From Tribonema minus (lineage: Eukaryota; Sar; Xanthophyceae; Tribonematales; Tribonemataceae): DNA of 64,000 nt. The first letter of the stretch is position 1; each line of letters opens with the position of its first letter. Of the stretch, positions 699 through 60,374 are shown piece after piece. The notes under the pieces are model-generated. The model made no database searches. It had not been told where the DNA came from and saw only the letters and a program-made list of their open reading frames with translations. The DNA is taken from assembly GCA_017506865.1 (NCBI GenBank), contig JAFCMP010000501.1, positions 310,001 to 374,000 of the forward strand, written 5' to 3'. The translations under genes were made by a program, and so were the position numbers.

Positions 699-3600
699 CT
701 GTAGCAGGTAGCACACGATGGCGTACCCCGCGCACGACTCCACAAAGTTAGATCTCGCGCGCTTCAGGCTGACCCCGCCCGGCGCGCCAAAGTGCCGCTT
801 GAAGAAGTCAGGAAGTGACACTCCCGGCGCGTTGCGCTTGAGCGCGTGCAGGCTGACCGTGTCTGGCACCGCCTCCAGGATGCCGGCGGTGGCGCTCGTT
901 GCCAGGATCTGCGGCGCACGCACGGAGCGCATGGAACTTCATGATGCACACACGGCGTAGACAGGACTTGAAGTAATCAACCCCCAGAGCACTCCCAACA
1001 TCAAGCCTCTGTGGCAACAACGGTTGTGTCCAGATGGCAAGGACTGCACTCGCCATCGGGCCGCATGGAACGCGCCACAGACGCGTGACCGCTGCCGGAA
1101 CTTGGCTGCATATCACGCTGACTCCAGCACGTACGAAGCAGTGCAGCGCTTTCGGCACCAGCAGCCATAGTGAGCAGCGGCCACGCGCTGAGCGCTGAGC
1201 ACGTCAGCAACTGATGACATGGCAATTCTCAGCTGTCAGGTCCGTGTCACTTCGCCTCGAAACTGTCACGGAATGCAGGCGTGCTGGCCCATCTGCAGCC
1301 ACTGCGCGAGCACACACTTTGAGCGTGGATGGAGCCAACGCTGGCCACTCGACAGCATCGCGTTCATCGCAGTGCGCGGTCTTCATGCGACACAGCGCCA
1401 GCTCTTGCAGTGGCCGCCCCGCAATCCGCCCCGCCCCCCCCCCCCCCCCCCCTTGCAAGGACGCAATGCAGCAAGCAGCCCTCCACCCTCCACCGTTTTC
1501 AGCAACATATTCTGATGTACCGGTCGACAGTTGCAATTGCGGCCACAACAGGTCAGCAGCACAGTCACCAACAACCGCCTTGCCCCACCTCATCCGGGCC
1601 GCAGCCAAACCTTCACACCCACCGTTGGCAATGAGTCACTGACGCACTGAAGCCACCAACCTTTCCGGCAAACTCCGAAGGCTACGTTGAAGTCGCACTC
1701 AACAGTTACAACTACAACCCAAAGCACAGACCGGCAGCGTCACACCCCGCACTCCGTTCATACTGACGCAATGCAGCGACCAACCCTCTAGGCAGACTCT
1801 GAAGGCTGCGTTGAAGCGCCAGTCGACAGTTACAACTTCAAGCACAGACCGGCACCAATAGCACACCCCGCGCGCGCAGCCGCATGCACGCACCTCATAC
1901 GGCCGCAGCCACACCCCCACGTCCCCCTCCGTGAATATGCGGTGCAGCGACTCCACCATCTGGCTCACGGCCTGCTCCTGGCGCAGGTCGTCATTCGCCT
2001 TGACGATGATGGGGAACAGGCGCCAGCCCTCGCGCGGTCCCGCAGCGCCCGCCCGCTCGCGCTCGCGCTCGTGCCAGATGCGCGACTCCTTCTCCACCCA
2101 GCGCTCGCGGAAGATCACGCGGCTCTGGTGCTCCTGCGCGCAGAGAGACACGGGGGGGGGGGTTCAGTATATGCTACTTCAATTGGCAAGCAGTTGAAGT
2201 TATCGAGCCAGAAGCGCGACTCCTTCTCCACCCAGCGCTCGCGGAAGATTACGCGGCTCTGGTGCTCCTGCACGCGCGTGTGCAGGGAGCGAGCAACCAT
2301 GGCGGGCAAGGGGGGGGGAGGTTCAGTGTGTGCGACTTCAACTGGCAAGCAGTTCGAGCCGAGGACGTGCGCATTCTTCTCACTTCAGCACTTGCGGCGG
2401 ATCACAGGGTGATGGTGCTCCAGTACAGATGCATATGCATGCACAGAGCACCTAACGCGGCACACATTATCGTTCATCTCACACCGCAGCTTCAACTTGA
2501 AGATCTTTGTCCATGCACTCTTTGTTCATGGACCTTACGCGCCTGCGGTCATTGACATGTCCGTACACACACAAAACAAGCACAATGCAGCGTCTATGCC
2601 AACATCAACAGGGAACGCTACGCACCGACAGGTCCGCCGACGACGTGCTCTCCTCGCCGCCGCTGCTGCTGCGCCGCCGCAGCAGCGCGGGCCCCCCCCT
2701 CCCCCCCCCCCCCCCATCAGCTCCGTCGCCTGCAGCGCAGCGCTGTAGCTCCGCGCGCGCCTCCCATACTCCCCCCCAGGGCTCAGCAGCGGCGCCGCCT
2801 TGCTGTCGCCGTGCCGCCGCCGCCGCTGCTCGCCCCCCTGCGCCCCGCCCTCCGCCCCCCCCCCTTCGGGGACGGCCACCGCGTCCATGGGCGCCGCCGC
2901 GGGGGGCGCCTGCCCCTCCTCGCCCCCTGCCCCCCTGATCATGGCCCCCCACGAGCTCGCCGTGCCCGACAGCGCGCTCATGAGGCGCGCGACGCCGCTG
3001 CCGGAGGGCTCCCGCTTCGCGCGCGCGTCACGCCACTGGCCCAGGTGCGACAGCCCCACCTCGGGGGACCCCCCCCCGTTGTCCCCCCCTGTCCCCCCGT
3101 CGCCAGCGCCGTGGTCCGAGCGGGACCCCCCCCCCCCGCGCGGGGGGGTGCCTGCGGCGGGGGGCAGCAGGCGCGTCGCCCCTGGGCTGTCCGCGTCGTA
3201 GTCGACCTCGCTCTCTTCGACGTGTTGGGAGTCATACGCCGCGGCGCTGCTGTGCTGCCGCGAGTTGGGCTGCGGAGCGGGGGACGCGGGCGGGGGGGGG
3301 GGGGGGCGGGAGTGTCAGAGCTCGACTTTGGACTGTGAAACCTTGTTTATGATGGCAGGTGGGCTTACGGTATGTAACGCTGCTGAGCCGTGTTGACGCG
3401 CGCTTCGTCTGCGTAGCGCGACAACCGTGATGATTTGTTTACTGCAGCATTCTGCCAGCGCAGCGGCAGACAGGTCACGACGGCGGAGGTGCTACGCAGC
3501 CCCGAAATACTCGCAAGGGCACTGAAGCATTTCAGCATCAACACGCTATACAGCCGCCAGGGCACCGAGCGCACGACGCCCCGCAGCCGTTACACATCAT

Positions 3601-6137
3601 CAGCGCCACGCCCTCATGTGCGACGGTTGTGACGGCAGCGTACCGATCTTGCGCGCTTCGGCAGCTTCTCCCGCAAGCTCGCAATGTTGTTGGCGATCGC
3701 CTCCTTCCAGGCGTTCACCAGCGACACCTCGTCCGCGCCGCTGCCGCCGCCGCCGCCGCCGGTGCCGCTGCGCGAGCGCGAGCTGCGCCGCCGCAGCGCC
3801 GCCAGCTCGCACAGGTCTAGCGCGCGCACCTCGAGGCACACCAGGATCGGCACGCGCTCTTTGGTGCTGAAGACGATGCACTCTTGCGGGAGTATGGAGC
3901 GCACCTGAGGGGGGGGGGGGGGGGGGGTGACGACATGAATTCGCATATACATGGTTGGTCGCCTGCGGATGGCGTGTGCGTGTGGACAAGTGTGAAGGTA
4001 TGCATGTGTGTATGTATTCCGCAGCGCCTGCCTGTAACCTCAACTTCCTGCTGAACAGCAGCACAGTGCGGCAGAGGCGAGTGGAGCTGACAACGCGCAG
4101 GGCAGGTGTGGTCGCTGCGTCAAGAATGCCGGTTGCATACGTACATGCGTGCATGCGCACTGATTGGTGTGGCGCTAACAGTCCAACGACAATGCACTGC
4201 AGCAATGTGACGCGCCCTGAGAGGTGTGCATTGCGCAGCGTTGTAATACGATAACATCGCTGCCCCCTCACTGTTACTGCAATCGGCCGCATGCATGGTA
4301 GACGAAAGCTGGAACCATTGACTGCGTCTGCATTGATGTGTAAGCTGATGGCTAGTCTCACCTCTCACCCTATGCGCATGCTGAAGCCTCATCAAATCCT
4401 ACCTATAGTGCGCCTACATCTACAAAGAAGATGGCACAAGCGCACCTCATTCATGCAGGGTCTAAGACCACGACCACGGTGACCACTTGTCCCGAGCTCA
4501 CGGATGTTCATGCAGTTTGCAGGGCTCCAGCCAGTAACTTCAAACGCTGCTGCTCGGCTGCATCACGTCACTGGCTACCACACTCAAGCTCTTACCTGGT
4601 AGAAACACGCCCCAAACGGTACGTAGATGACGTCCGACCCCCCGTGCGCGCGCGCCGCCTCCGACAGAAAGAACTCATTCAGTCGCTCCAGCTTGGCAAC
4701 CATGGCCTCCTGCCGCTGCCCCAGAGGCACCGCAATGAGCTCCTCAGACGTCCGCGTTAGCGCCTCAATAAAGTACAGCGCGGAATGAAAGTGCTGCGGG
4801 GACCCCGCCAGTTCGCGCACCACACCGCCCCTATTTACACTATCCCCCCCGAATCCCCCCAAACACGCTGAGCCCCCCTCCTCCACCACCACCTCAGCCA
4901 CCGCCGTCGCCGCCGCCGCCGCCATACTGGTCCCTGTATCAGCGAGCGGCGGCAGCGGCGGCGGTGGCGACAGGCGCAGCGCAACGCCATCCTCAGAGGA
5001 CGTGCGTCTCGCCGAGCGCTGCCTCAACGCCACCGCCACCTCCGCCTCCGGCTCCACAGCGAACGCGTGCGCGACGGCGGCGCCGCCGTTGGCCGCTGCT
5101 GCTGCAGCCGCTGCCGGCGGCGGCGACCGCGACCGGTTCGACCGCCTCGACGACTGCCGCCGAAGAGCACGCGGGGACCTGCTGCCGCCATTGTGCGCGT
5201 CGCCGTCGGCGCTGTTGAGCGCTGCCTCTCTGAGCGCGGCGGCAGCGGCGGCGGCGGCAGCGGCGGCGGTCAGCTGCTTGAGGCGCTCGTTGAAGAGCGC
5301 CGCCGCCTTGCAGCCCTCCGCCTCGACGCGGTGGCGGAACGCCGCGGACGCGAGCGACGGCGCGCAGAACGCGGCGACGTGCCAGTACACGCGGTGCGCG
5401 AGGCGCAGGTCGAACTGGCAGAAGCGGCGCAGCAGGCACGCCTGGACCTCCGGCGACGCCTTGAACTGGCGCAGCGCGACGTACGTGCACAGCTGCGGCA
5501 GGTAGAACTCGACGGCCATGGGGTCGCGCGCGTGCAGCGTGAGGAGGTCCCTGCAGATGGCCGTCTCCTGGCGCGTGCGCTCCGCGTCGTCGCTGCTGCC
5601 GGAGTAGAGCCCCAGCAGCAGGGCGAAGGCGAGGTCGTCGTTGCTGGGGACGGAGCCGCCCACGCCGAACCACTTGGTGCGGTTGCGGAAGGCCTGGAGC
5701 TTGTGGCCCCACTTTCTGCTTCGCTCCAGGTCCTGGTGTGTGAGCAACAACGATGATCACGCATCAGGCGATGGGTGATAGAGATTGACATGGATTCTTG
5801 TGGCGGTGCTGCGCCATGTAGCGCACTCCGGCTGTGCCAGCATGAGCGCTGTCTCAAGCTGAGCAGTAGAACATGACCAGAGACGATGGCAGCAAACGCA
5901 GCAGGTGAAAGCAGGAGGTTAATTGTACAGTGCGATGAGCATTTGAGCAGCATGTTCTCAGCTGTGAGAGCGCCTGGCAGTTGGCTGTCGGATCAGATCA
6001 GCAAGGAAGAGAGGGACGAGTTTTCTCACCGCATCGTCTTCCGGACCCAGTATCTCCCTGAAATCCTTAGGCTGTCCTCGATAACAGCAGCAAAAGAGCC
6101 CGAAGCACCCGCATCCGCATGTCTCACAGCCGCCCAT
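699..6137 (-). CDS. Phosphatidylinositol 4-kinase (PI4K beta-type), partial at left edge
   Basis: Lipid kinase making phosphatidylinositol 4-phosphate on Golgi/endosomal membranes. Exons on the minus strand: 6137-6030, 5732-4596, 3904-3644, 3269-2626, 2133-1894, 908-699, all with GT-AG introns. Exon 1 begins MGGCETC and continues with a cysteine cluster. Exon 2 (379 codons) holds the helical PIK/LKU region (SNDDLAFALLLGLYS, then AVEFYLPQLCTYVALRQF) and a low-complexity Ala/Ser/Arg loop. Exon 3 has SILPQECIVFSTKERVPILV, typical of the start of the kinase N-lobe. Exon 5 has IVKANDDLRQEQ and WLRPYE; exon 6 has ILATSATAGILEAVPDTVSL and NFVESCAGYAIVCYLLQ. The catalytic DRHNGN and DFG segments would lie beyond position 1, so the gene is incomplete here. 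Exon 4 (low complexity) is one base out of phase, probably at a G run near 2690-2720. The family is certain; PI4K beta rather than alpha is likely. Confidence 0.9.
2080..2355 (-). repeat. Tandem duplication of PI4K exon-5 start plus upstream intron
   Basis: The first ~57 nt of exon 5 (encoding EHQSRVIFRERWVEKESR) recur upstream at about 2213-2273 with two or three changes. The following intron segment (poly-G stretch, then an ATTGGCAAGCAGTTGAAG-like string) is also repeated. The two units are about 135 bp apart. The outer copy keeps the coding-like sequence but is not followed by the rest of the exon. Confidence 0.85.
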
Positions 6138-7601
6138 GACACGCGGGGATGCCAATCCCAAGACTCACGGCCTGCCTATTGCTGCAGATACGGCACCATG
6201 TCTGTTGATATCGGCAGGTCCCAATCTGGCTGCGCTGCTCCGCTGCTGGATTTAGGTCCTGGTTTTGTGAGAGCCTAACACAGCTCGGTAGATGCGCTCT
6301 GAAAAATCATTGAAGTTCGGGGAAGGAAGTTGAACTTGTTGTTCACCCTACGTGGGGTGCTAGACCTAGGCGTGGGGGTGCAGACGGCTCGCGCTCCTCA
6401 GGCACTCAAACACACACACACACACACACACCTTCACAAGATGCATTGCCATCACATAGTGTACACAAATCACTACCAAACCACATACATACTAGTTTTT
6501 AAAAACCCAACCCATACAAACAGAGGGATTTGCACAAATACAGTGAGAGCGACAATTCATGAGCTGGCTCGCAAGTGTACCAAGGAGTTTGGAGTTCTTT
6601 ATAAACGTTAGACAAAAAGCTCAACCATCCGCCTATCTCGATCAGTGACTCTCTGTCCCCACATCCAGGCGCGGCCGTGACGGGTGTCGTTGACAGCACA
6701 TGCAAGCACAGTCTGTGATGGTTCAATTAGCATTGTTGCAGGCGCTGCCATGACCCTCAACGCAAACGTTCTACAACCGTGTTTTCTACACAACGAGCAT
6801 TAATTGGAGCAACTACAAGGAGCCAGCGGCAACAGGCCATTGTACAGATCATGTCCACACCAGCAGCATGTTTCGCGTCCGCAGCAGTGTCCGAAGCACA
6901 GCAGCTGCAGGCTTGGCAAAGCCGCAGATGCCAAAGCTCATACTGCGCTAGCTGTGACAGTGCAACACTGCCACAGTGGCAGCAAGGCCTTGCAGCTGCT
7001 AGCACAGCAGATGAAGTGCATGGCGGCAGCTGGCTGCATCTTGGATCTAGCAAAACCTCAACGAAGGTGATGATGGAGAAGGCAAAATCATTGTGCTTCT
7101 TCCCCAGCATGTTCCAGGCATCGAAACCGCTAGTCCAGCTTCACTAGGAGCTTTCAATGTGATGGCTGCAGAAAAATTGCACAAGGATGATACATTCAAT
7201 CCTACGTTAAAGGTTGTGACATTGTGATGCTTCCGCACATCAAAGAATCACAGCTTGCAGCATGAGGCAGTCACCCAGGGCAGCAGCTTGACAAGCAGCA
7301 GCCATAAACGCGAAGCGACGCAGCAGGTTTGCAAGCTCTGGAGCGCAGCAGCACTTGATAGCATCAGCATGTGCTTATCAATTTGATCAGAGGGTTCAGT
7401 TTGCTAGTCATATGCACATTGCAAGGCTGCTGTACCTGAGGCTTAAGCACAAGCACTGCACAGCGCACATGTGTCATTTGGTACGCAGCTGCCGGCACTG
7501 TCCGTCCATCATCAACAGATGAAATGCAGAGGAAGATGGGGGCCACTGCCCATTTCAAAACTGATGTGATGTGTATTTACAGTGTTTGTGCTCTGCCGGT
7601 G
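6138..7601. other. Intergenic stretch upstream of PI4K
   Basis: No supported gene. It holds a (CA)n microsatellite at 6410-6431 and an AT-richer stretch around 6430-6620. Short open frames on both strands show no recognisable domain. The PI4K promoter and 5' leader presumably lie near 6140-6400, and the 3' end of the CX9C gene just below 7602. Confidence 0.6.
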
Positions 7602-8138
7602 CTATTCATCTGGCTTGTAGTCTTTCTCCAGCGCTCTATATTCCTCCTGCACTCTTATCAGTTGTTGAGGCTTCTTCTTCTCGAGCTTGAACATGCAGGC
7701 GTCATATTTGCGCATCAGAGGTTCGCACTCAGCCAGCGCCTTCTTTCCAGCATCCTTATCCTGACAGCACAACATGCATGTAGGAAAATCATTCAAACAG
7801 CTGTGGTCCATTCACATACATCTTCCAAACTGCTCTATCTCGCCGTTTATGGGTTTCAAATGCAATTCCCAACTATGATGGCCTCGTGTACTGCAATCCG
7901 GTTATGCGATGCGCAATCATCCAGCTGCGACTGCCATGCTTACAACCACAGCTTTCATTGTTAGAAGCAGTGACAAGCGTCCATGGTGGTGCAAGATCTC
8001 GGATCTCACCCCTTCAGGAGGTTGTTCGCCCTTCTCGCTGAAGCACGCAAAGAAAGCGTCCGCCGGTTTGGCGCAGGGCTTGGGATGCCTGGGAAAGTGG
8101 TCCGCTAGCCGCAGCTCCGATGATGCTATCGCCGTCAT
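7602..8138 (-). CDS. Small twin CX9C (CHCH) protein
   Basis: A 95-residue protein from two exons, 8138-8010 and 7760-7602, joined in phase 0 (donor GTGAGA, acceptor TGTCAG). Residues ~22-32 read C-AKPADAFFA-C and residues ~57-67 read C-EPLMRKYDA-C: two CX9C motifs separated by about 24 residues. This is the signature of coiled-coil-helix-coiled-coil-helix proteins that fold in the mitochondrial intermembrane space by the Mia40 relay. The tail is a charged helix (LEKKKPQQLIRVQEEYR). It lacks the extra motifs of the CHCH proteins I can recall, so the specific function is open. The ATG lies 129 bp from the start of the divergent seryl-tRNA synthetase gene. Confidence 0.7.
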
Positions 8139-8267
8139 CGTTGAGTTTACTCATAACAAAAAAGGTGAACTTTAACTTCAAGGAGCACTGCGGTCGATTC
8201 CTGGCTCCGTGCGTTCTCTCATTGAGCAGTATACTTAGCCTCTGCTGCTGCAGTAACACTTGCGATC
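8139..8267. promoter_or_regulatory. Shared divergent promoter region
   Basis: Only 129 bp separate the start codons of the CX9C gene (minus) and the seryl-tRNA synthetase gene (plus), so both promoters and 5' leaders must fit here. It contains an ACTTTAACTTCAAGG string related to the dispersed AACTTCAA motif. No TATA box is evident. Confidence 0.55.
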
Positions 8268-17441
<9,174 letters not shown>

Positions 17442-18361
17442 GGGGGCGGCGCGGGGGGGGGGGGTGCTGCTCCGTGATGGTGTGGCGAGGTGCCGGGTAG
17501 CAGTTGGTGTGGGGGGTGTTGCGGTGCGGAGGGGGGGGAGTGGGCGCTGCGCAGGTGCCATGGCAGTAGAGCGTGGCCTCCGGTGGCGGACGCACAATGA
17601 GTCGTTGTCAAGTTTGCAAAATGCATCACAGCATGATTCACAACAGCGTGATCTGCACCATGGCATGGCCCCTATGCTGTTTTGAACATTTGCTGGTCTT
17701 GTCAGGTCATGTTGCCTCTTGCGCTCTCCCCTGATGTACCTTGACGTACTTTGAATAGATGAGAGGTTGCTGTCAGATAAATCTGATGAACACGCTACAG
17801 CAGAAGTAATGGCGTGTTGCCTGGACATGCACACCAGAAGAACCTGCCGCAAACAGAGCTGAGTCATAGCCACACTTCGTGTGCCACAGAACAAGTGCAC
17901 ATTCATGTTGCTGATGCCCTAGGCGCCTGCAGCTGCGACAGTGCGTGCATGAGACTCTGCTCACGTTGGGAACACGTGTGATATATCGCCATTCTGCTAC
18001 CGCAAGCGCATGGTGTTAGTGTATTCTTGACTGTAGCTTAGTGTACACTCACTTCCTGAGAGGTCAACAAGAGCAGCATCGTGATAGTCCAGTCCCTCGC
18101 AATAACACAGCGTTTGCAGCTCAACGTCAGTACCTTGTTCAGCTCGTGATGAAGCTATAGAGCAAAAAACCTTGCAAGATGAATACTGACACAGCAGCAA
18201 ATGCAGACCACCAAGCCCTTCAATGCAGTGACCACATGTTGACATAGCACAACGCCGAGTTTGTCCAGTGTGTGTGATACATGCAGACATTGCCATACCG
18301 CGAGCAGTGAAATACAGGGGACAGAGAGAGCACATCCGGCTGCATTGATCATCCCCAGTGT
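17442..18361. other. 3'-3' intergenic region
   Basis: Between the SerRS stop and the PIS-like stop. It holds G-rich tracts just after the SerRS stop and otherwise ordinary sequence. No supported gene and no clear AATAAA. Confidence 0.5.
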
Positions 18362-20230: not shown

Positions 20231-23200
20231 TCAGCTGAGGGCCTTGATGGGCGCCTCGTGCTCCCAGAGCTCGTGCAGGAAGGCAAAGAGGCGCACGCTG
20301 AGGGAGACCTTATAGGGCGTCGGGTTGAGGCTGCGCTTGACGTCCTCGCGTAGCGACGCCATGCCCTGCGCACGGTGGCGACGACACAGTCGACCGTTGC
20401 GTGAGGTGCTGTGCAGGCGGAGTTCATGTGGTGATTTGAAGGTGTGCGATGTCTGCGCTATGACGCTGCTCGTGCAAATAAGCTTGTTGTGGAGACTGGG
20501 GTGAGGCAGCGCTCGACAACTGTGGTGCGCAGCGATGCCACACACTATACACATGTGCGCAGAACTTTGCTGAGCTGAGCAACGGGAGCAGTTGATGTCG
20601 CCAGGATTGGCACAGGAGCCTACTTCCGCCGTGTCTCAAATGATTCTCTTTTTAAGTACGTCGAAGCATCCAACTAGCACTTGGTACGGTAGAGAGGAAT
20701 GCGCCACTTGCCTTCATGACGTGTGCACGAACTTCATGTATTGTGGGCAGCGGCTCCACCACACCACCTCCGGCGCCGTCCCACACCTGTCAAAGCGACG
20801 CCACAAAGCAGGCGCAGGCAAGGATACATGTTGGAGTGGGCAATGTTGACATGTCCTTCCATGCCTCCATTAAACAGTTGATGAATGTTGCTGACCCAGC
20901 TCAGTGATGCACACACAGGAGCTCAAAGCCTCTATGTCACATGATTGATCGAACCCAGGTACGCAGACTGCCTAGTGTAGATTGACTACGGTATAGGTGA
21001 ACAAAGCTACTAGTTGAACTAGTGTGTCGCTCAGTATATGGCAAGTGCACATTAATTTGTGCAGGGTCCTTGCATCTGCTGAGGGGAGCTTGGACCACAG
21101 TCCTTGCATCTGCTGAGGGGAGCTTGGACCACATCAAGCCGCACAAACCGGTGTGAGTGAGATTGGTGCTGCCAATGACGGGCATGCTGGAATGCCGAAA
21201 GGAAGGAGAGTGATGGCTCTGTGCTTTCAAGCCTTGCTGCAGCGCTCAAGCGCTTCACAGGGACAGCCTCAAGGATTGGTGGTGGTATGGTAGTGATCAC
21301 AGCTTGACAGCACATAAGAAGAGCTTTCCGGTGGCCGGCAAGAGAGGACGCTGTTGACGCGCCTTATTCCCATCCCTAATTCTAACCCTAGCCCCCAAGT
21401 ATGTGTATCAGCACCTGCCCTGCACCACTACATGATTGCGCATCAGCGCCAGCATGCTCATCGCATCTGCCCACTGTTGACCGCTTGTGCGCATGCAACA
21501 TACGACACAAATACAGTATCAGAGTTTGAATGAACACGAATGGAAACAAATCAAAGGATCGCAGCGCTGTAGGTGACAAGGTGTGGTTAGCCGCCAATGC
21601 CTTCCACCAATATACACATGGTCGTCGCTCAATACTACTCACCAGTTGGTGCAGCGGCATGACGCGCGACGCTGTGACCATGGCGCGCACCGTTGCCTCA
21701 AAGGGGTGCTTGCAGAGCACGGGCTCGCCCGCACGTGGCGGCGGATCGTCAGCATGCTGCATGAGGTCTAGCAGCTGCGTGCCGTCGGCGCCAAAGAGGC
21801 GGTACGCGCATTTACGGCCTGGCACCGTGACCTGCGCAACACCATGCGTTCGGTGAGCAGAAGGCGGAGTATGAAGTGGAGCATGACGCCCGCCGTTTCC
21901 GTGTACTTCAAGATACTGTAAGGTATCACAGTGACCTGCACACCACGGTAACCCGCACAACAGGTGTGGTCGGTAGTCAGGCAATCTGGGTGTCCTGTGG
22001 AGCAGTGCGCAACCGGTGCGTGTGGGGTATTTCAAGATGCAGGTGTTGTGACATTGTGACCTGTACAAAGCGGCAACCGCAACAACACGTGTGGTCGGTG
22101 CTCATGTGAACTGGGTGGCGAGAGGAGCGTTGCGCGCGCCGTGCTTGAGGTGCCAGCTATGAATATGTGTGGCGGTTACAGTCGCTTGTGTCTGCAGGGC
22201 TGCCGCCGACGCCAAGCGGGCAGTGGCCAGACCCACGGTAATTACACCATTGGGCATTCTGAGAGAACAATCACAACCTCTATGCGTGCATTTGTGTGCG
22301 AGTGCGTGTGCTGGGGATCAGGTACAGGCATAATTCCAAAGCATGTTGTCTCTTCTGAGATGTACAGAGTGTACTCGTTGCGCTGCTATACTTCAACCGG
22401 CTCTTGAGCGGCAGGGCACAAACCAACGACACGCCGCCTCACACAATCGCGCCGCACCATACATGCATACACACCTTGTTTTTGTTCTCGCTGAGCTTCA
22501 TGCGCGGGCTGCCCGAGATCTCAACGAGCTTGTAGACGCAGCCGAGCGCGGGCTGCGCCTGGCATGTCACCAGGTGCGTGCCGATGCCAAATGTGTCCAC
22601 GCAGTGGCCTTGCTCGTCGAGGGCGTGCAGGACCTGGCGCACAGCAGCGGAATCACAGGCACATCGTAAAAACTCTAACTCACAGGGGCGTCGTGAACAC
22701 GCTGATGTAGGCATGCATATCGTGGCATAACTCTAATCTTGGCCCTGAAACGTGCGCCCCGCTGCGCCCCTGCACAACGCGAAGCAAACGAATCACAGGT
22801 GTTTGGTGACATTTTGGTGTTGGCATTGTGATCAGCCAGCGCGAGGTGCTGCCCTGCAGTGGCGTCACCAGTGCCCTTAGGGTTAGGGTTAGGGCTTGAA
22901 AAGCGCGCGCACAAGGAGCCACCTGAGAAGCTGCATAGCAAAACATGGTACCATTCTGAAAAGCTGCATGCCAGAGAGAAGGCCTCTGCGACTGGTGTGG
23001 ACGCAGCGTTGGCTTGTGAGTCATGTCGGAACAAGACGCATCTTTGTGTTACTTGCAGACATTCAAAAGGCGAGTGTCGGTGACTGGCTACAAGCAAGCG
23101 CGTGTCATTGCCGCAACTTCACAAGTACGACGCATTTGCGTTGAACAAAGCTGAGGAAGGCGCCAGCGACAGAGGCATAGCCTGGCACAAAGCACATGCA

Positions 23201-28669: not shown

Positions 28670-28700
<31 letters not shown>

Positions 28701-33609: not shown

Positions 33610-35662
33610 GATGCTATGATAGCGTTCACACGTTCAAAAGCACTTCCTGCTACTCCACTTCCTTCCCACTTCCAAAGGTTGATGTTGATGTTTGACCATG
33701 GCAAACATGGCATGAAGGACATTCCATTGAAGATACCGTGTGACAACATCCGATTTTTTCTTCATGTGTGTGTCTGTTCTCGGCTCGGATGCTCTGTGTA
33801 CGCTGGCGCTACCCAGCATGGGAAGTAAGTTGCGCTGGAAACGCGAACTGTGCTACATGGTGAGATTGACGGCAAAGTACATTATGTACCAGCCATTGAG
33901 TATGCAAGCACGTGACGCACATGGAAAATGAAGTAGCTGTGCAGTCACTGCGCAGGCATTGTGGCAGGGTGGCAGAGAAGAGCAGGAGCGCAGGGGAAGG
34001 ACGAAGCAGCATATGGCGGCAACCAACAGAGACAGGGGCGAAGTGTGCAGCGCGTGCGCCATGTGCAGTGCTGCCAATAGAGCTGAATGTATGCACGCCA
34101 GTGCTATTTCTTTCAAAGCATGTACTTTTATTATATTCCACTTGTGGCTGTGGAAATGCCATGTTGTAGGTGTGTCGCCTTGTCCTCACTCTTGGATGTA
34201 GCATGCAAAGCTTGCACGCCACACCCCGCCCCCCACATCACCCCCAACAAAGCACCCGCAAGCGACTGTCCCCCACATACTAGCAGGGATACCAAACAAA
34301 GCTACAAGACTCTCCCCCCACAGACAGACCCGTCTTAGGGCCACCCAGCTCCACGCAGACTCCATCTCAAAGTTTTCATGCAGGCCAAGGTCACCATAAT
34401 GGGCCCTGAACTGGAGATTGTGGCTATCTACGTGAACCCCGATATCATAAAGATAAGCAGAGGGAGTCACTGGGCGCCAGGCGCTGACGCTAGAAAGAAA
34501 GGCTATATAACTAAGCAAAGCATCGCCTCCTTGATGAGCGGGACGGTGGTTTACCGGGCCTCCCATATCACCCCCAACAAAGCATCCGCAAGCGACTGTC
34601 CCCCACACACTAGCAGGGATACCAAACAAAGCTGCAAGACTCTCCCCCCACAGACAGACCCTTCTAAGGGCCACCCAGCTCCACGCAGACTCCATGTACT
34701 TCAGCTGGAAGTACGTGAAGGGTGAGGTACGCAGAGGCTTCTGGCATCACATCATCACAGGGTTTGACGCACTTATTTGCACAAACCTGCTGTATGTAAC
34801 GATTGTGCACACTGTTTGGCTGCCGCATGCCACCAGAGTATGGATGATCATATCGTAGGCAACAGACTGAGAGCTGCTACAGCTCTTGCTGACTTGTACA
34901 CTGGTTGGCGTTCACTTTGTGCGGCTCCTAATGCAGAGATGGACGCCAGAGTGTTGGTCGAAACGCACTCAGGCACGACTATGCGGGATGGTGTTTCCTG
35001 CCTCCACAGTCGTGCTGATCGCATGCGCGGCGGATCGTGGCAGTCACGGCTGGCTTGCCACGGGATGAAGGCGAACTCGTGTGCAGCGTAGCTGTCGGCC
35101 CTGCAGGCGCTGGTATGTGGCTACAGTCTGCTGCACCCGAGCCCTGACACAGTGCGACTGGCAGGGTTCGGGCTGGTGTGCCTGGACCACAGGGTCACTG
35201 GAGTGCGAGGCGGGCCGCTATACCAGAACTATACTTGAACCATACTTGAACATATTTAACCCCCAACCATACTTGAACCACGTTAAAAACAAAACTAGGG
35301 TTTCATCCGGGCCCCCCACAAACCGCTCCACCTCGTGATCCGCGTCCAGCCCCACCTGCGGGCAGACAAATCAGTCCGTACCCTGCCAGTCGCACTGCGT
35401 TGGGTTCTGGTGCAGCAAACTGTAGCCGTACACTAGGGCCTGCCCGAGACCGCTAACATGCACACGAGTTCCCGTTCATCCCGCGGCCAGCGATACCGCC
35501 TGGCAGATTCGATCACTGCCGCCATCAGCCGCCCAGGGCTGGTTTGATGCGGAGGGATGACGTCGAAGTGCAAGTTAAAGTTGATGTTCAGACTGACTTC
35601 TTTTCTTTCGCCAGCCCAGCAGGAGCTCGAGGTGGCTGTGCGCAACTTGTGTCGTCACAGCC
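33610..35662. other. Intergenic region with a repeat pair
   Basis: 2 kb between divergent homoserine dehydrogenase and DUF1295 genes. It holds the 129-bp repeat pair (next entry) and short CCATACTTGAAC repeats at about 35,230-35,280. Other open frames show no recognisable domain. Confidence 0.5.
34237..34695. repeat. Pair of 129-bp direct repeats around a 201-bp core
   Basis: 34237-34365 and 34567-34695 are about 95 percent identical over exactly 129 bp each. The 330-bp spacing is a multiple of three, so one minus-strand frame (34695-34186, 169 codons) stays open through both copies and the core. The termini (ATCACCCCC ... GACTCCAT) do not look like retroviral TG...CA ends. It may be a TRIM-like remnant, or a segmental duplication of part of an unknown coding sequence. 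Confidence 0.8.
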
Positions 35663-43938: not shown

Positions 43939-44173
43939 TGCAGTTCAGTTCAGGTTTCTTGGTGGTTCTTCTTCTCCTGGTGGGTGAAGTTGAAAGTGAA
44001 GTTTGCACCCTCTAAGAGCTCTGCAAAAGCCAGTCACGCTGTTTCGGTGTCGTTGTTCATAGCTAGACGCGCTGGCTCAGCACATCACTCCACCTCCAGC
44101 GGACCATCGCGCGGCATCCGCGGTGAAAGCCTGGCGGCCCATCTTTCGTTGCCGTCTCTGTTCGCCATTCACA
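43939..44173. promoter_or_regulatory. Divergent promoter region PEX26-like / LSG1
   Basis: 235 bp between start codons. It contains a GAAGTTGAAAGTGAAGTTTG string at about 43,986-44,006, related to the dispersed GTTGAAGTT motif. Confidence 0.4.
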
Positions 44174-48242: not shown

Positions 48243-48470
48243 GGTGCGCGCGTGTGTAGGTTCTACTACTAGGTTACCTATTTGCGCACGCCCTTCTGGC
48301 GGCTCCCAGTTTTGCAGCACAATACATTAAGTGTTCTGTATAATCCTATTGATTGTTATCAACATTCTGTTCGATGTCACACATCATGGGTTGTTGGAAG
48401 AAGAGAGGTGAAGTTCGAGGTCACTTGAAGTCCCAAGTTGAACATCCGCTTTTGAGGGAATACCGCAAGC

Positions 48471-51400
48471 ATGGTGGCGCCGGCTCCGAGATGGTGCACG
48501 CCCGTGGTGGCTTTGCTGCCGCTGCTGCTGGGAGCAGTGACAGCGCTTCTGCCTGCAGCCACTCTGCATGTGCGCCAACACCGCCTGCAGCTTCATGCAA
48601 TCGGCTCTGCGCAGCCTTTGCTGCGCCAGCGCCATGCCCTTGGCATGTCAACGACTGCTGCTCCAGCGCCAGCACAGTTGAGCGCCGGTGAAAACTTTAA
48701 TTACTGGCGAGCATGGTGGCCTGTCGCCATCGCGGAAGATCTGCAACCCGATGTTCCTGAGAGAGTTGAACTTCTAGGCGAGGCGCTGGTGCTCTGGCGA
48801 GACAGCAACAAGCAGTGGAGGGCGGCAGTGGACAGATGTCCTCACAGGGTGAGGCTTATGTGGTGTTGATGTCAAATTTTGGACAAAAAGCGCGAGCATG
48901 AGCTGATTGCTGATTCAGAGGGCCTTCGGAGTCTCAGAGGGCCTTCTACAGTGTCACAAGTATATGTCACTCCCAGTCCAACTCTAGCCTTGAAGCTACA
49001 TATACGATTGCTAAAAAGTCGCCATCAGCCGTGCTGCTCTGCAGCTTCAAAGGTGGTCACAGTAATGCAGCTCAATCACTCGTTCCCCTTTCCTGCCCAG
49101 TATCATCCATAGCTACTTGAGTGTACTTAACATTCACTCAGGTTGAATCAGAACAGAGCGATGTCAGGGTGTTGTTGTGAAGTACACCATGTTCCAGCGC
49201 AATCTGGCACCTCTCTGCCCACCTACTACCTACCCACTGCAGTACCCCTGAGCTGTGGCAGCCCAAATGAAGGCCAGTCCCCCTCTTTGGGTGTTGTAGT
49301 ATCAGCTTTTTGCTCCATGATGTCGCCACGTTGTCATCAGGGGCAGGTGACACCTGTGTGAGATGTGTAGCATGTATGCATGTGAGCGACGACAGAGCTC
49401 AAACGCGAAGGTGCCCCACCCACGCGCCTGCCCTGTCGTGTGACGTCTGCGGGAGCCAGGCCCGCCCTTCATTTACGCCCTTTGCTCAAACCGCCACACG
49501 TCGCACATGAGCACACTGACTCGTTGACAAGTGATCCAGCGGCATTGTCTGTCAAAACCTGCGTTCAAAGCACAACACCTTGTACACATGAGTACACCGA
49601 GTCGGTGAGCGATTCAACGGCATTGCCTGGCAATGCGCGGCGCTGCCACACTGAGGTTAAAGAGGTGTGTTTGCAACCTTACCAAACCTTGTTTTTGACA
49701 AACTTCTTGTGATGCGCAAATTGGAGCAGATGGCGCCCCTGAGCGAGGGCATCATACACCCCAAAACGGGCAACCTCATGTGCACGTACCACGGCTGGGA
49801 GTTTGACGGCGATGGCACGTGCACAAACATACCTCAGGCGACCACTGACGCGGCTGCGGCGTCCCGGAGGTAGGCACTGCGCAGCGCTGGTGAACTCTGC
49901 TTGTCTTGCCAACAGAGTAGTGGGTGCTCCATTTTGGCTGTCACTATGTATGATGGTGAGCCGTATGCCACTATGTGTCAGATACTACTTGCGTTCTTTC
50001 GGTGATGTCAGGGCGTCCTTTCGCCCTGCATATACAAAATGCGCTACATGTCATGTGTGTGTAGTACGACACTTAGACCGCATACGTGAAGCGGGTTGAG
50101 ACTTGTATTTCTTATAAATCACCAGGAAAACTTGCAAAGTGCGTTTGACATCGCAAAGCGCGTTCGACACTCATCAACAGCAGCTGCAATCAACTTTGCT
50201 GTTGTGACGGTCGACTTGAGGGGGCAGTATCAACATGGACGCATGGCATGTATGTAGGTCTTCAAGTACAAACGGCTTGAACCTTTCAGCATGACTATCG
50301 TCACGAAATCGTGGGCTGCTTGTCCTACAGCTAGCTATGGCAGCCTGAGAGGTTGCCCGTGCTCCGCATATGTGCCGTCATGCGCATGCCGCGAGGCTTG
50401 CTTGTTTTCTTCGCTCTGCCCGTGACGCCCTACACCACCAGACGCGGCGGCAGCGCTCAACTTATCGCGCAGGCGCTCTCGACATGGCTGCAAGACGACT
50501 ACCAATACTAGCTGCTTTGCTTGCTGCTTGCTGTGGGTCGTGCTTCCGCAGCAGACCAATGCCCCATATCCGCTGCTCGCTCACGTCTTGGTTGGCGACA
50601 CAGTTTGCTGAGCACTGGGCAACATACCCCTTGTGACACTCTCCAATGACACGCATAATTGCATCTTGGCGTTGCGCGCCTCCGCAGGGCGTGCGCGCAG
50701 TCTGTGCCCGTGCAGATTGCGACGGGGCTGGTATGGGTATGGCCCGACACCTCGCCGGAGGGCCTGGCAGAGTCCAAGATAAAGCGCCCTGCTATCGTGG
50801 CCGACATGGACCTGCCCGACTACAATGGCTACTGGTGAGGCACGCGTGCTGAAGGTTATTTTTGATAAGTTTGATAGTGAGGGGATTGGGTAGCTACATG
50901 TAGGTAGGCACAGAATGTGTGTGACGGACATGAACGTGGCTGGCTACAGCGGCCACTGGTGAGTCACGTAGCTGGAAGTGTGTGGTACGAGCGCCCAGCG
51001 CAGCACAGTCGAGTTCTGCCTGAAGATTGGGCAGGTACGCACGAGGTAGGCGCACATAGGGTATGTATGGCAGGCATGCTGACTCTAACCCTAACCCTGC
51101 CTGCATATGACGGCTACTGGTGCGGCTCACGGCCCTGAGGGTTTGGTAGGTTTAGGGTTGTCCCTCATCCTGTGTGGTACCGCCCGCCTCCGCAAGGTGG
51201 TCGAAAGTTGAGCCTAGCGGATGATGCTCAGTGCAAGGTGGTCACTGTGGACGGCGCTTATTGTCTCCATCGACGGTTAGGGGCAGGCATGGGTCGTCTG
51301 CGGTGCGGAAGCTGGTGGGTTCAGTCTCAACAACAGCGCTAACCCTTACCCTACCCCTAATCCTCAGGGTCGCTGCGCACAAGAGGCCTCAGCATCACCC

Positions 51401-54400
51401 TTAAACAAAAAAAGAAGACTCCAAGAGAGGTCCCTGTGATCAGCCTCAAACTCGCATTTTGTTATTGGAGTTTGCTGTTGAAATGCCTGGCAATGTCGCC
51501 GCAGTAAAATGCAGGGCGCAGCGGATATGGCCTTCGAGAAGTGCTGCCATAATTTCGGTTGCGCTTGAGCATCGACAAGTGCAGCTGCGGACGTCAGCTA
51601 CCACGCGCCTTTAGTGTGTGCGTTGTCTGTGCTTGCTTGATGCCGCTGCCGTCGCGTGCAGGTACGTTCGCGATCAGCCGTACTCGTACGACGTGCTCAT
51701 TGAGAATCTGGGAGGTGAGTGCGCTGAACATTGCTTCTAGGCTGAGCACTGAGGCACGAGCGGAACCTGGTACAACCACGATTCACTCCCCCACAGCAAG
51801 CACTCAGCAGTGAGAGCACCCCTTCTGCTGAGCACATGTCGTTGTTCATGTGTGGCGACCCTGGCTTGCCATTGAGCTGAAAGGGTTGCGCACACAAGGC
51901 AGGTAACCTTCCCCATGCAATCGTGAGCTTCCGCCTTTCCGTGGTTTGCAATGGCGACATGACAATGGAAACGCTCATACTGTAGCTTGCAATAGTGACA
52001 CATACATCAAAACACATGCAAGCTCATCAAACCCAACCTCCTGAACTACCACCACTCATCTCTCACCTATGCAAAATGCGTACACCATGCGCCTGCTTGG
52101 TGCACGCATCATCAGCAACCCCATAAAGTCGTGAGCTACCGCCTCTCTTGGCTTGCAATGGTGACATGACAGCCGAAACACTCATACTGCAGCTTGCAAT
52201 AGTGACACGTACATCAAAGCACACCACCATCAGGATACTGGCAGCGCATCCACGCTCGCCTCTTATCCTCTCACCAGCCCCCCCCACCCTGTCAATCGCT
52301 GTGTTGCCCTGCCCCACCACTACTATAGTTTGCGATGTTGACACGTAGACCATTACATGATCATCAGGGCCTGGGCAGCCGTCTCGCGCTCGCCTCCACC
52401 CCCCCTGCGTCGGATTCACACACTACCAGTAGGAGCTAGGCAGCTCATCCACTTTAACCTGCCTGCCCCCCCCCCCATCAACCTCTCAATTGCCCCATGT
52501 ACCCCTGCCGCTACCCCCTAACCTACCCCTGAACCTACCCCTGCTGCGCAGACCCAGCGCATCTGCCTTTCGCGCACCACGGCGTCATCAGTAACCGCAA
52601 GAGCGGGGCCCCCCTGGGCATCACCATGGAGCCCCCATCGGCGCTATTTGGGCCGGATGCCAAGAACCTCCACGCCAATGGGGGGTATCTGTCCAAGCCG
52701 TTTGCCTTCATGCCCGCGCTGCGCGACACGCCAAACATGGTCATGGGATTTGAGCCGCCGACGCTGTTCTACTACAAGGTGATGACATAGGTGAACATAA
52801 TCTACATAGTGAGAGGTGACGTGTGCGCAGAAGTACGAGGTTACGGGGCTTGAATCGCCAGCGTTGTTTCATTACAAAGGGGTTCTTGTTGTTAAACATT
52901 GTGTGCAGTTGAAAAGTACATACTTCAAAGTATACTCGAAGTATACGTATACAGTTCATGCACAGGGTCATGGATTCCTGAACCTTGACGCTGGTCATCT
53001 ACAAGGTACTCCCCAAAGTATGCACAGCGATGCACAAGGCTCGGCACACTCTCATCAAGCATGTGCGTGTATCTGGCAGGTGATGGAAACATGCGCGGTG
53101 CGACCTGCAATGCACCAGACATTGCAGCGCATAGGCTAGTAAAAGTTGTAGATCGAGGCGACATTCCTGTGCTCCAGGGCAACAGTGCTCTCGACTTGCC
53201 AGCTCACGACCTCAGAACGGACCGCCGCCAGCAGCCGGTGCTAACATTCTTATGTTTCATATATTCTACATGTTGCATGCCGCTGCTAAACAAGCATCAG
53301 TATGTCATCTGCTAGTGAGAAGCACTATGAGTGATCGCAGGTACTTGGATGCATGCTGTATGTATATAAAACCATCAAGTGCTTCGGGCAACATGCCACA
53401 GGTCACATACAATTCACAGGCGCCCACTGACACCACTCCCACACGTCTGTGCGCATGCGCGCTATTCCCTGCATGTGCCGTCGACGACAGAGCACGTACA
53501 CAGGGGACATGCTGCAAGACGTGGTGCGGCGGCTGCCGCTGCCGCCGCCGTTTAAGGCACTGGGCCGGTTTATGGTTGGCAGAGACACCAAGAAGGCAAG
53601 CCTCGTTGTCGCCTTTGCAAATATTGCAGCGCAAGTGACGCATTGATGAACGCACGGAGGCCTGTTTTCAGGTTGTAGCTCGTCAGCACAACGTTGATTT
53701 CCCGGCAAGCGTCAGCTTTTCTACTTGTAGTCTGCACTTGGCGGTATTTCTCACCAAGTGGTTGGTCGTTGGTATGCAACAGTCAGCGGTGAAACATGGT
53801 GTGTCATCCACAGCCCAGCAAAGCCAATGGTCTACTCTTGCAGCGCTGCACAACTGGCATCCAACTGCAATGCGTGTTGTTGAAGTATGCGCACATCATG
53901 CCACCCGCCTTCACCTGAACAAGATTGACGCTGGTGCTTTCGAATGCCCCATGCGCCTGTGCGAGACAGCTTCACAGCATAAGAAGACACACTAGCAGTG
54001 GCCACACTTTCGCTCACCGCTGTACGGAATTCAACCTGACGCCCATCCGCAACTGTCATGTTCAACCTTGCAGAACCCGGACAAACCACTGCACCTGTAC
54101 TTTGTGGGCTACTCAATCCCAACGATGCCCGGGAAGTCGCGGCTCATTTTGCGGAACTGCAGAAACTTCCTGACGTTTCTGGGCAAGAAGTCGCGCGCCG
54201 CAGACCACATCCGGCAGCACCTGGTCCTCGACGGCGACAACGCGCTGCTGCACTACGAGGTGATCGTCAACTTCAATATGCAAACCTCAAGTCTGTGCGA
54301 TAGAGTGATAGTTACCATTGCGCGCTTCTGCACTACGAGGTGAGCTTCAACATCAACGCTTAAACGTGAAGTCTGTGTGATACAGTGATGGTCGCCGCAC

Positions 54401-56407: not shown

Positions 56408-57876
56408 TGCGCCGTGCGTGCAGCACTGCTCAGCATGCGCTGTAGCACCTAAAGTAGGCACGGTTGCATGAACGGCGTGAATCGGCAACTTAGTGCCATG
56501 GTGGTGGCGGTCTTGGATTTGGTGGTGCTGGCAGCGCGCAGCAAAGCTGATGTTCTCAGTGGCAACGTGTTGCGGTTGCAGCGCGCGCTAGTGGTGTGCC
56601 GCTGACTCTCGTGATCGGCAGGCAGCACTTGCAGACAACCGTTGTCCCTGGCATCTTTGGCTGCTCTACATGAGACCCAGCCCCCTCTCCTGCTTACTGC
56701 AGTGGCACAACGTGCTGCTCCGTCACGCTGCGGGTGCCGTGCTGGCAGCCATGTTCAGTTGAAGAGCACTCCATGTGTTCAGTCTTTTTAAACTCTTCAT
56801 AGACCTGATAGGTCCACCTGGCTGAGGGCGGCTGCAGCTGCACTGTGCAAAGCCCCCTCCCCTCCCACAAGCCACACGCCTTACGTGCCTTACATCACTC
56901 CCATTTGTTTCATGCCGGCATGTTGAACTTGAACTTGTGCCTGAGACAAGATACAGCAGGCGAGTGTGGCTGTGCTAACGTGCACTCTTGTGTGAGCCAC
57001 GGCACCATGGGCCAAAGTTTGCCAGGTTGAGCTTCACTGCAAGGCATGCCAGCAAGAGCACGCACAGGAAACACTGGCAGACTGGGACTTGTGTGATTGA
57101 TGCATGTAAGCTCCTGTGGCCATTCGCCATCTGCTACGCCACTTCCAAGCCTGCCCATGCTGCAAGAAGCCAAGGCAGCTGGGCTGTGGCACTAGAGGCG
57201 TGATAACAACTGTGGTTTGTGCCGTTGCAACTGTGGTTTGGTGCCGTAATGGAAGCACTGCTGCGCAGGCGGGCGGCGGTGACTCACTCCGTTATAGACC
57301 TACAGACACAAAAGCAACAGCTCCAGCGCAACACGTGTCACGACGTACCAACCTGAACACACCAAAAAGTGGAGCCAGTTTGGGACCTGCCTGGTCCCGA
57401 ATGCTCGTGCCTCTCACTACGTGCGATGCTCAACATAACACGGGCTCGCCCGCTTGCTGCCACCACCCAGCAACGCGCAGTACAGTGTACTCATAGCGCG
57501 CAGCAGCCTAGTGCTGCTGATGCCTGCCGCTGTGCACATACAACAAGGTGTCAGCTGGTGACCTTGAAACGAGCTGCAGCACCCGGTGCCGTCTCGCCCT
57601 CCCCTCACGCCCTCTTGTGCCCCCCTACACCACGCCCACCGGCTTCTTCAGAAATTGAGGCAGCGCTTCCGCTTTGCGCAATCCCTGCTTGGCCTGCAAG
57701 CAGCCGAACGCACAGCCCCCCCTCCCCCCCTCCTTCGCCTCCATGTCAAAAAAAAAGAGCAGGTCTCCGCCTTACTGCTCCGTCGCACACCGCTCCTTGG
57801 AACCTGCCCCCTCCCTCCCCCCTCCTAAATACCTCGGCCGCCCCCCCCTCCCCCCCGCCCCTTCTGCCGTCAAAAG
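56408..57876. other. 3'-3' intergenic region
   Basis: 1.5 kb between the PAO stop and the PX-protein stop, with C-rich tracts at 57,600-57,870. No gene is supported. Confidence 0.5.
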
Positions 57877-60374
57877 TCAAAAGTATGAGCGGTGGCGGCG
57901 GCACGCCCACTGCGGCGCCTGCACAAAGTCGATGAGCACCGAAATGTCGGGTATCTCCTGCAGGAGGTGGGCGAGGAGGCGCTCAATCGCGCGCGCGCGC
58001 CGCGCCAGGAACGGGTCCGTCAGGTTGGGGAACGGTCCGTCGCTCGCGCCGCGCGCGTTCTTCACGCGCCCCCACGCCTCCATCGAGTTGGGCAGGCACA
58101 TGGGCACAACGGTCGCCATGAGGCGCTCAAAGTCGGCAAAGCAGCGCCACGCAATGTACAGCGAGTCCTCAAAGCTCAGCGCGATGCGGTACTCGGCGAA
58201 CTCGTACTGGAACCAGAGCAGGCCGCGCGCGCGCGCCACGCGGTAGCCGTACACGGCACTGCGCGGGGAGTAGAGAAGGGGGGAAGTGGGTGTCAGGCCG
58301 GTCGGTTTTCTGTGGTGCGAGGATGCTGTGGTCGTGTGACTGCACGGAGACTGCGCCATGTATCATATACTGTGGCGTGTGACGGGGCGCAGGGGGCTAG
58401 CGCAGCAGGTTGCCACCGATGACGGCGGTGCAAGGGTACACATGTCACATGACACATCAAGCGGGGCAAGCAGCACAGCTTGAATGCTCGGCGAGGCACG
58501 TGGCAAAGCCATCACCACCATGTGTTGTGACCAGCCTCTAGAGGTGTGCTGACGACGCACTCATCCTGCGGTCATCATTGAGCACTGCTGCATCAACTGT
58601 GTACGTATCACACCAAGGTAAACCTTCATACTTACCTGGCTGCGCATGGCTCCTCGCGCGCAGTGATGTATGTGCCCTAGGTCACGCGCTCCCTGGCGCT
58701 GCACTCTGAGCTCTACCGCATCAACTCTTTGTGTGTACGCGCTGATATGTACATGTGCCTATGCGCTGAGCACTGCCGCATCTACTCTGTCGCACCTTCT
58801 GCACGGCGATACACGTGTCTAGGAGCATACCTGGCCGCCCAAGGCTCCCTGTGTACTGCAACCTCGCAAAAGACGACTAGTATTACGGTTTACGGTACAG
58901 CGGCCTTTGCAGTTGAGCTTGTTTAGCAGCTCGGCGGCAGTTCGCGCGCATCCTGGGTATGTACACACGCTGATGATACACGCAATACATACCTACGTGC
59001 ACCCACCTGGCCGCCCACGGCTCCTCCCTCACGGTGATGTAGAGATCGCGCGCGTCCTGGCGCTCCTCGCGCAGCACCACGTGCCCCTGCCGCTCGCAGC
59101 GGCGGCGGCAGTCGTCGCACAGCGCCAGCAGCATGGTGTCATCGCGCACGGGGACGCGCGACAGGTTGCGTGCCCTGTCCTCGTCCCCCTCCCCCTCCCC
59201 CCCCTCGCTGTCCCCCTCACCGCCCCCCCCCTCTGCGCCGTGGTGCGCCTCCACCGCGTCCACCCACTCGAAGATGCGCTGCAGGATGGGGTTGACGCCC
59301 GCGGGTATGGACTCGCGCCGGAACGCGTCCTCCGAGTCTGCGCGCCAGGGGGGTTTAGGGGGGGGGGGGGAGAAAGGAGAGCGGGGGCATTGGAGACGCG
59401 CGGATGAGCGGTGGCGCGGGCACAAAGTGGCGGCTCGATTGAAGTTTCAGGAGAAGTTTGCGCGTGCTGAGTTCTGCGTGTGTGTGATGGCGTCACCAAC
59501 GCGGTGCTGCCCCCTCCTCCCCCCTCCCCGGTGTCAGTGCACAACAGTGGTCTCCTACCAGAACGGGGGGGGGGTGGGTGGGTTGTCGGCAGTGAACTTT
59601 ATCCTCTGGCCGTGCAGCAGATGAGGGTTGCAGTGGCACGCAGGTGGTGAACGCATGATCATTCCAGAGTGGGATCATGCGCTTGAAGCGACAAGGGCCA
59701 GCAGTGCACGGCGAAGATCACGACGCACCAATCAGAAGCTGAGGCAACTGTAAGAGCATCCTACAGTGAGTGTGCACACATGCAACTACTATGTAGAGTT
59801 GTGTTGCGAGGACAATGATGAAAAATTAGACGTTTTCACATTGACGCGCATGGCGTCGTGTGCATCTGATACGCTCATTGCTCTTGCAAACTTCACTGGA
59901 GGCAGGGTGGCAGCAACATTGCATGGGTGACCTGATCTGGCACCCTATGCCAGTAATGCACGCGCCGACTTCTTGGCGTTGCAAGGCGTGCTGCAGCCAC
60001 AGGCACTTTCCAGGACAGATTGGCTTGTCAAATGAGCAAAACAATCACCACAATCAATTCGACAACAAGCCCGAACGCTGCTGGCTGTTGGTGCTTGCAG
60101 CAGGCGGTGTATCCACCTGAAGGGCCAACTCACCGAACCAGCCAAAGAACGAGGAGTGCCGGCGGCCTGGAACGAGGGCGACGCTGTTTTCCGCCGTGTC
60201 TGCCTCGCTAGCAGTACTGAAGGGCACGTGATTCCGCAGCACCGGGCTCTTGATTTCCACGATTTGGCTGGTTCGCTGCTTGCCGCTGAAGGGGACGAAG
60301 TTTTCGATCGTATGGCTTGGCGCGGCATCCTCACTCAAAGTGAGTGAGGAACCTTCGCGTGATGTGAACGCCAT
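57877..60374 (-). CDS. Divergent PX-domain protein (tentative)
   Basis: Three minus-strand exons, 60374-60134, 59337-59007 and 58258-57877, join in consistent phases (1, 2) and give 317 residues. Residues 1-80 are Ser/Thr-rich and look disordered. Residues ~81-190 include ESIPAGVNPILQRIFEWVDA, an acidic Glu/Gly loop and a helical segment with cysteines (LALCDDCRRRCERQGH). Residues ~191-305 resemble a PX (phox) phosphoinositide-binding domain: SLYIAWRCFADFERLM occupies the place of the RRY-x-x-F element, and FPNLTDPFLARRARAIERLL with LLQEIPDISVLIDFV matches the C-terminal helices. The central proline loop is altered. The homology is by pattern only. The exon-2 donor edge is duplicated downstream. 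It is divergent from the gamma-tubulin-complex-like gene. Confidence 0.55.
58627..59077 (-). repeat. Duplicated PX-gene exon-2 end with donor
   Basis: The exon-2 end and donor (plus strand CCACCTGGCCGCCCACGGCTCC at 59003) recur at about 58827 (TACCTGGCCGCCCAAGGCTCC) and 58635 (TACCTGGCTGCGCATGGCTCC). Both extra copies, read on the minus strand, retain strong donors (GTATGC and GTAAGT). Matches continue into the exon for about 60 bp in the outermost copy. Confidence 0.85.

Follow-up and report, generated by a model that had tools for sequence, protein, structure and literature searches.

Exon edges recur within adjoining introns

In a 64-kb window on contig C501 of the xanthophyte alga Tribonema minus (genome of 158.18 Mb in 554 contigs), copies of seven exon edges, belonging to the three genes PI4K, SerRS, and PaO, lie in the intron next to the edge. 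We think it probable that these are ordinary small tandem duplications that are tolerated, are over-represented at exon edges, and lengthen existing introns. Throughout, the window is the whole 64-kb stretch. A preliminary description of it had listed about ten boundaries in five genes; the seven boundaries in PI4K, SerRS, and PaO stand, and NAPRT, and probably also PX, drop out of the list for the reasons given with the other features of the window.

The sample comprised the window and stretches of 10 kb (29 drawn, one dropped), and it amounts to 334 kb, about 0.2% of the genome, with 164 kb of it around the window. One locus, L018, is a satellite array and was kept out of every cluster count. 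Local direct-repeat pairs were called at ≥45 bits with tandem repeats of period ≤12 masked. We wrote a gene finder for this analysis and trained it on the sample. Once seven apparent pseudo-exons had been removed as copies, its models contained 166 introns flanked by confident exons.

We identified 241 local direct-repeat pairs in 344 kb, or 210 without L018. The control was a set of 210 pairings between unrelated 3-kb chunks, in which no match reached 45 bits and a single one reached 40 bits. Outside L018 there are 85 clusters: 42 edge-spanning or exon-to-intron, 18 within introns, 2 exonic, and 23 outside modeled introns. With the pseudo-exons still included, the best pair straddles an edge in 32 clusters, runs from exon to intron in 9, is internal in 17, and is otherwise placed in 2, with 25 clusters lacking an intron. 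Exon-edge duplication is present in 32 of the 166 introns, at 24 donor and 19 acceptor edges, and a separate exon-edge search found copies at 26/154 donors and 16/154 acceptors. Thus, for this sample and its own gene models, the earlier proposals that both kinds of edge are affected, that the copies are of mixed age, and that the process reaches many genes beyond the window are borne out. The spread of periods is wider than the 65-190 bp first reported: intron-associated clusters have a median of 168 bp, 5th-95th percentiles of 78-447 bp, and a middle half of 125-247 bp. Microsatellite slippage, which the preliminary description had already judged inadequate, was rejected given that middle half and the masking of short periods.

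The duplications are unevenly distributed among the 16 genes with at least four introns (chi-square p 0.0004; 0/5000 permutations). Within L022-L026 (C1:1000001-1050000), the first 10 kb and 37-47 kb hold myosin-like and patatin-like genes with edge copies in many introns, exceeding most of the sampled genes.

The SerRS and IspH gene models pass over the copies

The SerRS gene in the window was rebuilt as seven exons with GT-AG introns and a frame that is open across all of them. Three donors and one acceptor recur within the adjoining intron, and at these duplicated edges the in-frame model takes whichever donor comes first and whichever acceptor comes last. The SerRS features, in window coordinates, are:

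9431..9482, + strand: exon end and donor at junction 9468/9469, the source (self-match, in-frame model)
9532..9569, + strand: copy 1 of the 9468 exon end (exon-edge scan score 34)
9640..9677, + strand: copy 2 of the 9468 exon end (score 38; 100% over 39 nt)
9779..9816, + strand: copy 3 of the 9468 exon end (in a period-139 array with copies 2 and 4)
9918..9955, + strand: copy 4 of the 9468 exon end (exon-edge scan score 26)
11651..11730, + strand: exon end and donor at junction 11680/11681, the source (period 80; in-frame model)
11731..11809, + strand: single copy of the 11680 donor edge (81%; score 26 on the exon part)
12444..12529, + strand: exon end and donor at junction 12507/12508, the source (self-match, in-frame model)
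12603..12688, + strand: single copy of the 12507 donor edge (92% over 86 nt; score 50)
13661..13727, + strand: copy of the 14112 acceptor edge, its AG ending at 13716 (65-bp unit; in tandem with the following copy, 100% match)
13726..13792, + strand: second copy of the 14112 acceptor edge, its AG ending at 13781 (100% tandem with the preceding copy)
13935..13985, + strand: third copy of the 14112 acceptor edge, its AG ending at 13952 (self-match)
14113..14263, + strand: true exon past the last acceptor, junction 14112/14113 (in frame with the upstream exon)

SerRS also has two C-terminal WHEP-TRS domains (window 16576-17047) that are tandem copies of one another. We rejected these as part of the edge duplication because they are coding protein repeats.

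A second gene, IspH on contig C20, has a deposited T. minus protein that is identical along the whole 293-residue query. This deposited model holds each duplicated segment once and skips every copy: three exons use the donor that precedes the copies, and the exon starting VNENGKK uses the last of two acceptor copies. Skipping is shown, on these models, in two conserved genes, SerRS and IspH, and we infer that splicing disregards the copies in every gene.

Decay of the copies and probable growth of introns

Copies could be compared with the true exon by codon position at 36 junctions (63 of 76 copies). Differences at positions 1, 2, and 3 number 69/935, 78/938, and 135/938 (0.074, 0.083, and 0.144), and with only the best copy per junction they number 30/558, 37/557, and 74/557 (0.054, 0.066, and 0.133). 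Since changes fall at positions 1 and 2 as well, the copies seem free of coding constraint. The surplus at position 3 is what would be expected if the true exon gathers synonymous changes. In one SerRS copy (12603-12688) all differences from the exon (4/4 in 56 exonic nt) fall at third positions, a pattern that is striking alone and is not general across the copies. In copies found by their exon part, differences amount to 0.123 in the donor exon part versus 0.261 in the intron part, and this two-fold ratio appears to agree with the prediction of neutral decay. Among well-placed copies the donor GT is intact in 31/42 and the acceptor AG in 15/17; copied sites are thus neither strictly retained nor rapidly lost. 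Skipped and decaying, the copies appear to be dead.

Information on how the copies form comes from six contiguous duplications with ≥95% identity and units of 65-283 bp. Their microhomology is -1, 1, 1, 1, 2, and 2 bp, which suggests end-joining of staggered breaks. Under the mechanism we propose, small tandem duplications with units mostly of ~80-250 bp would arise continually, probably by such end-joining. Where a unit lies across an exon edge, splicing would keep the exon-proximal site (the first donor or the last acceptor), and because that site is still used the protein would be unchanged. The extra exon piece, the splice-site copy, and the intron piece would all become intron, and the intron would lengthen. 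Free of constraint, the copy would decay, and later duplications may multiply it. Introns with edge duplications (n=32) have a median length of 826 bp, compared with 447 bp for those without any duplication (n=121; p 0.0007). The longer duplicated introns fit growth by duplication, with the direction not proven.

Excess of duplications at exon edges

The number of edge-spanning clusters was compared with a null in which units of the observed periods were placed randomly in the same introns, edge-spanning and internal placements being equally tolerated. In this null the true exon is nearly fixed and the remainder decays, and identical detection is applied. Edge-spanning clusters account for 41/59 (one cluster of period ≥500 omitted) versus 21.7 expected (sd 3.3), an observed/expected ratio of 1.89 with 95% limits of 1.45-2.23 (bootstrap over 17 genes). 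At identity ≥80% the count is 24/35 versus 12.3 expected, and at ≥88% it is 10/12 versus 4.2. Elsewhere than C501 it is 34/45 versus 18.1 expected, and for single-pair clusters it is 16/27 versus 9.7. Cluster density per kb of possible starts is 0.83 for edge-crossing placements, compared with 0.18 in intron interiors and 0.17 outside introns. Corrected for simulated detectability, the ratio of edge to intron-interior density is 3.2. Base for base, then, units cross an edge about three times as often as they lie within an intron, and the reading that we favor does not explain the cause.

Hand classification in homology-checked genes gave 11/13 clusters edge-spanning (IspH 6/7, SerRS 4/4, PI4K 1/2; binomial p 0.0006 at 0.37); counted automatically, on a truncated model, the IspH gene gave 3/5. 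The exonic part of the unit has a mean of 53 nt (range 13-136, 42 junctions) versus 84 nt expected if uniform, and 0/2000 simulations were as low. This shortness is only suggestive, since the exonic part of a copy may also lose length through decay at its far end.

Self-alignment had been proposed as the check on enrichment at junctions, and it gave a divided answer. Enrichment is evident relative to uniform placement, as above, and is not evident as direct contact when the exons are masked: 11/43 clusters contact a junction directly versus 10.2 expected. The remaining 32 clusters divide into 18 that hold an exon-edge copy and 14 that do not, so that 29/43 touch or carry an edge in total. Random exon edges compared with the intron segments of those 32 clusters matched in 0/625 trials.

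Weighing the explanations

Several results weigh against the interpretation that tolerated tandem duplications are over-represented at edges and lengthen introns. Direct contact in the exon-masked search is one, and the excess that this search does yield rests on the 18 clusters with an edge copy, which may be multi-step, events that the single-event null omits. Sequential events also inflate the multi-pair clusters (25/32 edge-spanning versus 12.0 expected). The excess is weak on the window's own contig (7/14 versus 3.6), and two predicted genes on C1, one of which is probably several genes chained together, contribute 24 of the 41 edge-spanning clusters. The gene models are predictions made within this analysis. 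Among the six fresh duplications, a predicted real donor is crossed only once and a copied SerRS acceptor edge once; the other four comprise one intron-internal case and three beyond modeled introns. With so few at edges, they show a general mode of formation rather than one at edges in particular. Finally, copies found by their intron part differ by 0.118 in the exon part versus 0.170 in the intron part for donors and by 0.236 versus 0.167 for acceptors. The reversal for acceptors means that the ratio depends on which part located the copies.

Exon edges might be true duplication hotspots, with breaks or nicks tied to the GC step from exon to intron (73% to 56%), to transcription, or to nucleosome borders. 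The exonic end of hotspot units would then fall mostly within ~90 nt of the junction, and duplication could be a main route of intron growth in some genes. We hold this combined proposal only tentatively and would sooner doubt it than adopt it.

The opposite account, which we regard as unlikely, dispenses with a hotspot: duplications are uniform, purging removes those in exons, and those across edges are more visible since the true exon does not decay. Placement simulation without a hotspot by itself yields 39% edge-spanning among detected events, and the equal densities inside introns and elsewhere, like the count of direct contacts after exon masking, are in keeping with this account. However, the matched null already models the detection bias and the excess of 41 over 21.7 persists; it is still present in the most similar clusters, and it is seen again in the homology-checked IspH, SerRS, and PI4K genes, with the lower automatic count for IspH noted above.

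We give very little credence to functional copies, that is, decoy splice sites or cassette or mutually exclusive exon pieces under selection, although the preliminary description had anticipated decoys and cassette exons. The GT and AG dinucleotides kept in many copies are in favor of such a role, as is the SerRS copy with third-position differences only, which had hinted at conservation by selection or conversion. That hint is contradicted by the larger codon-position count, in which first and second positions also change over 63 copies, and on the same count we rejected the copies as duplicated alternative exons. In addition, a unit taken from a donor edge need not bring its own acceptor, and the deposited IspH protein includes no copy.

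Scarcely believable, too, is the earlier proposal of new introns by the AGGT route, in which tandem duplication of exonic AGGT would itself have created the copy-bearing introns: the SerRS intron 12507-14113 has the donor AG/GTAC and the acceptor AG/GTAT, and the unit of a potato case is of the same kind as here (PMC4974935), yet the copies hold intron sequence past the splice site and sit within existing introns whose outer sites serve in SerRS and IspH, and a newly made intron ought to consist of exon copy.

Other features of the window

In PI4K, for which the PI3_PI4_kinase domain was found, the predicted exon is 1894-2133, and the duplicated edge is an acceptor:

2069..2141, - strand: PI4K exon start and acceptor at junction 2133/2134, the source (95% match to 2203-2275)
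2203..2275, - strand: PI4K acceptor-edge copy within the intron upstream (95% over 73 nt)
2364..2420, - strand: second PI4K acceptor-edge copy, decayed (score 21; 69%, 36.5 bits)

The PaO-like gene is assigned from a Rieske match and a weak PaO match, and two of its donor edges are duplicated:

50797..50844, + strand: PaO-like exon end and donor at junction 50834/50835, the source (predicted exon; self-match)
50921-50968, + strand: copy of the PaO 50834 donor edge (77% over 48 nt, 42.8 bits)
51096-51131, + strand: perhaps a further copy of the PaO 50834 donor edge (30.1 bits)
54241..54312, + strand: PaO-like exon end and donor at junction 54259/54260, the source (period 80)
54321-54392, + strand: copy of the PaO 54259 donor edge (81% over 72 nt)

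There is an additional weak match of 27 nt at the PaO acceptor 54684/54685. Three of the seven edges in the window (14112, 54259, and 50834) came from BLAST or visual inspection and fall under the cut-off score of 19 in the scan of the window that used the exon edge only. They were missed by that scan because the exonic part is short or decayed.

The two genes that left the original list have the following features:

59005..59041, - strand: tentative PX donor edge (weak copies at 58634-58670, 38 bits, and 58829-58848, 30 bits)
21903-22025 / 22027-22150, - strand: intron-internal tandem duplication in NAPRT (period 124; 69%)

The PX copies are only suggestive. Two open reading frames (ORFs) tested at the PX locus had no Pfam match, and the identity of the gene is therefore not confirmed. 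The NAPRT repeat begins ~70 nt into the intron (predicted exon 21643-21831) and crosses no predicted junction.

Other repeats were detected in the window. An inverted repeat (35053-35184 / 35363-35491, 78% over 132 nt) lies between homoserine dehydrogenase and DUF1295 genes. A direct repeat (34223-34365 / 34553-34695, 94% over 143 nt, offset 330) lies within one minus-strand open frame that has no gene model. Neither the Rfam scan nor the tRNA scan matched anything in the window. Outside the window, the excluded locus L018, on a small contig, holds a long array of diverged repeats at 7532-9990, with a step near 143 bp.

Implications

If tolerated tandem duplication is the explanation, as we favor, introns would have a simple and mostly neutral way of becoming longer and filling with decoy-like sequence. 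The copies provide many natural test cases for the choice that splicing makes between near-identical sites. Should the excess at edges hold genome-wide, it would point to a mutational hotspot at exon borders. There is also a warning for annotation, in that our own gene finder called seven apparent copies exons.

Comparison with known systems

Many eukaryotes have recurrent within-gene duplications, some of which include splice sites and intron sequence. Gao and Lynch, in a 2009 study that PMC4974935 cites, reportedly described internal gene duplication that included splice junctions, with interest in added coding sequence or new introns. The T. minus duplications resemble internal gene duplication in that a duplicated unit within a gene contains a junction (42/85 clusters). 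They differ in that the copies have been absorbed into existing introns, where they decay, in 32/166 introns.

Tandem genomic duplication is well described as a source of new introns (PMC3443670, PMC4974935, PMC2891723). In the potato RdRp gene the duplicated unit was an intron end plus the start of the next exon, and the outcome was a new intron whose donor was a cryptic site in the exon upstream (PMC4974935). The anatomy is the same as that of the acceptor-edge units here; the outcome is different, since we saw no new exon or intron and the outer sites are still used. Duplication of proto-splice sites in Drosophila (PMC2891723) is alike in being regional tandem duplication near splice positions, but there coding sequence was duplicated and then intronized, whereas here introns are lengthened.

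For the process of formation, the closest parallel is the origin of small tandem duplications in human and mouse cells by fill-in at break ends and non-homologous end-joining (PMC8355091). Head-to-tail copies of one local segment, a feature of small end-joining tandem duplication, are present here, and all six fresh duplications have little or no microhomology at the join (-1 to 2 bp). That work concerns human and mouse cells, and the portion consulted describes no preference for exon edges. Introner elements (PMC9860276) are likewise intron-associated repeats in eukaryotes. They form one family over many genes, whereas in T. minus the repeated sequence is that of the intron's own exon edge. 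We rejected an introner family given the absence of matches among the chunk pairings (0/210 at 45 bits); the distant self-matches of the window are short and GC-rich.

Among the literature matches listed, which did not include the Tribonema genome report and whose scope left out most subscription papers, we found no description of such duplications in Tribonema. Tandem duplication itself is known. Different here is its outcome: existing introns have taken up the copies, in about one-fifth of those sampled, and there is an excess at exon edges.

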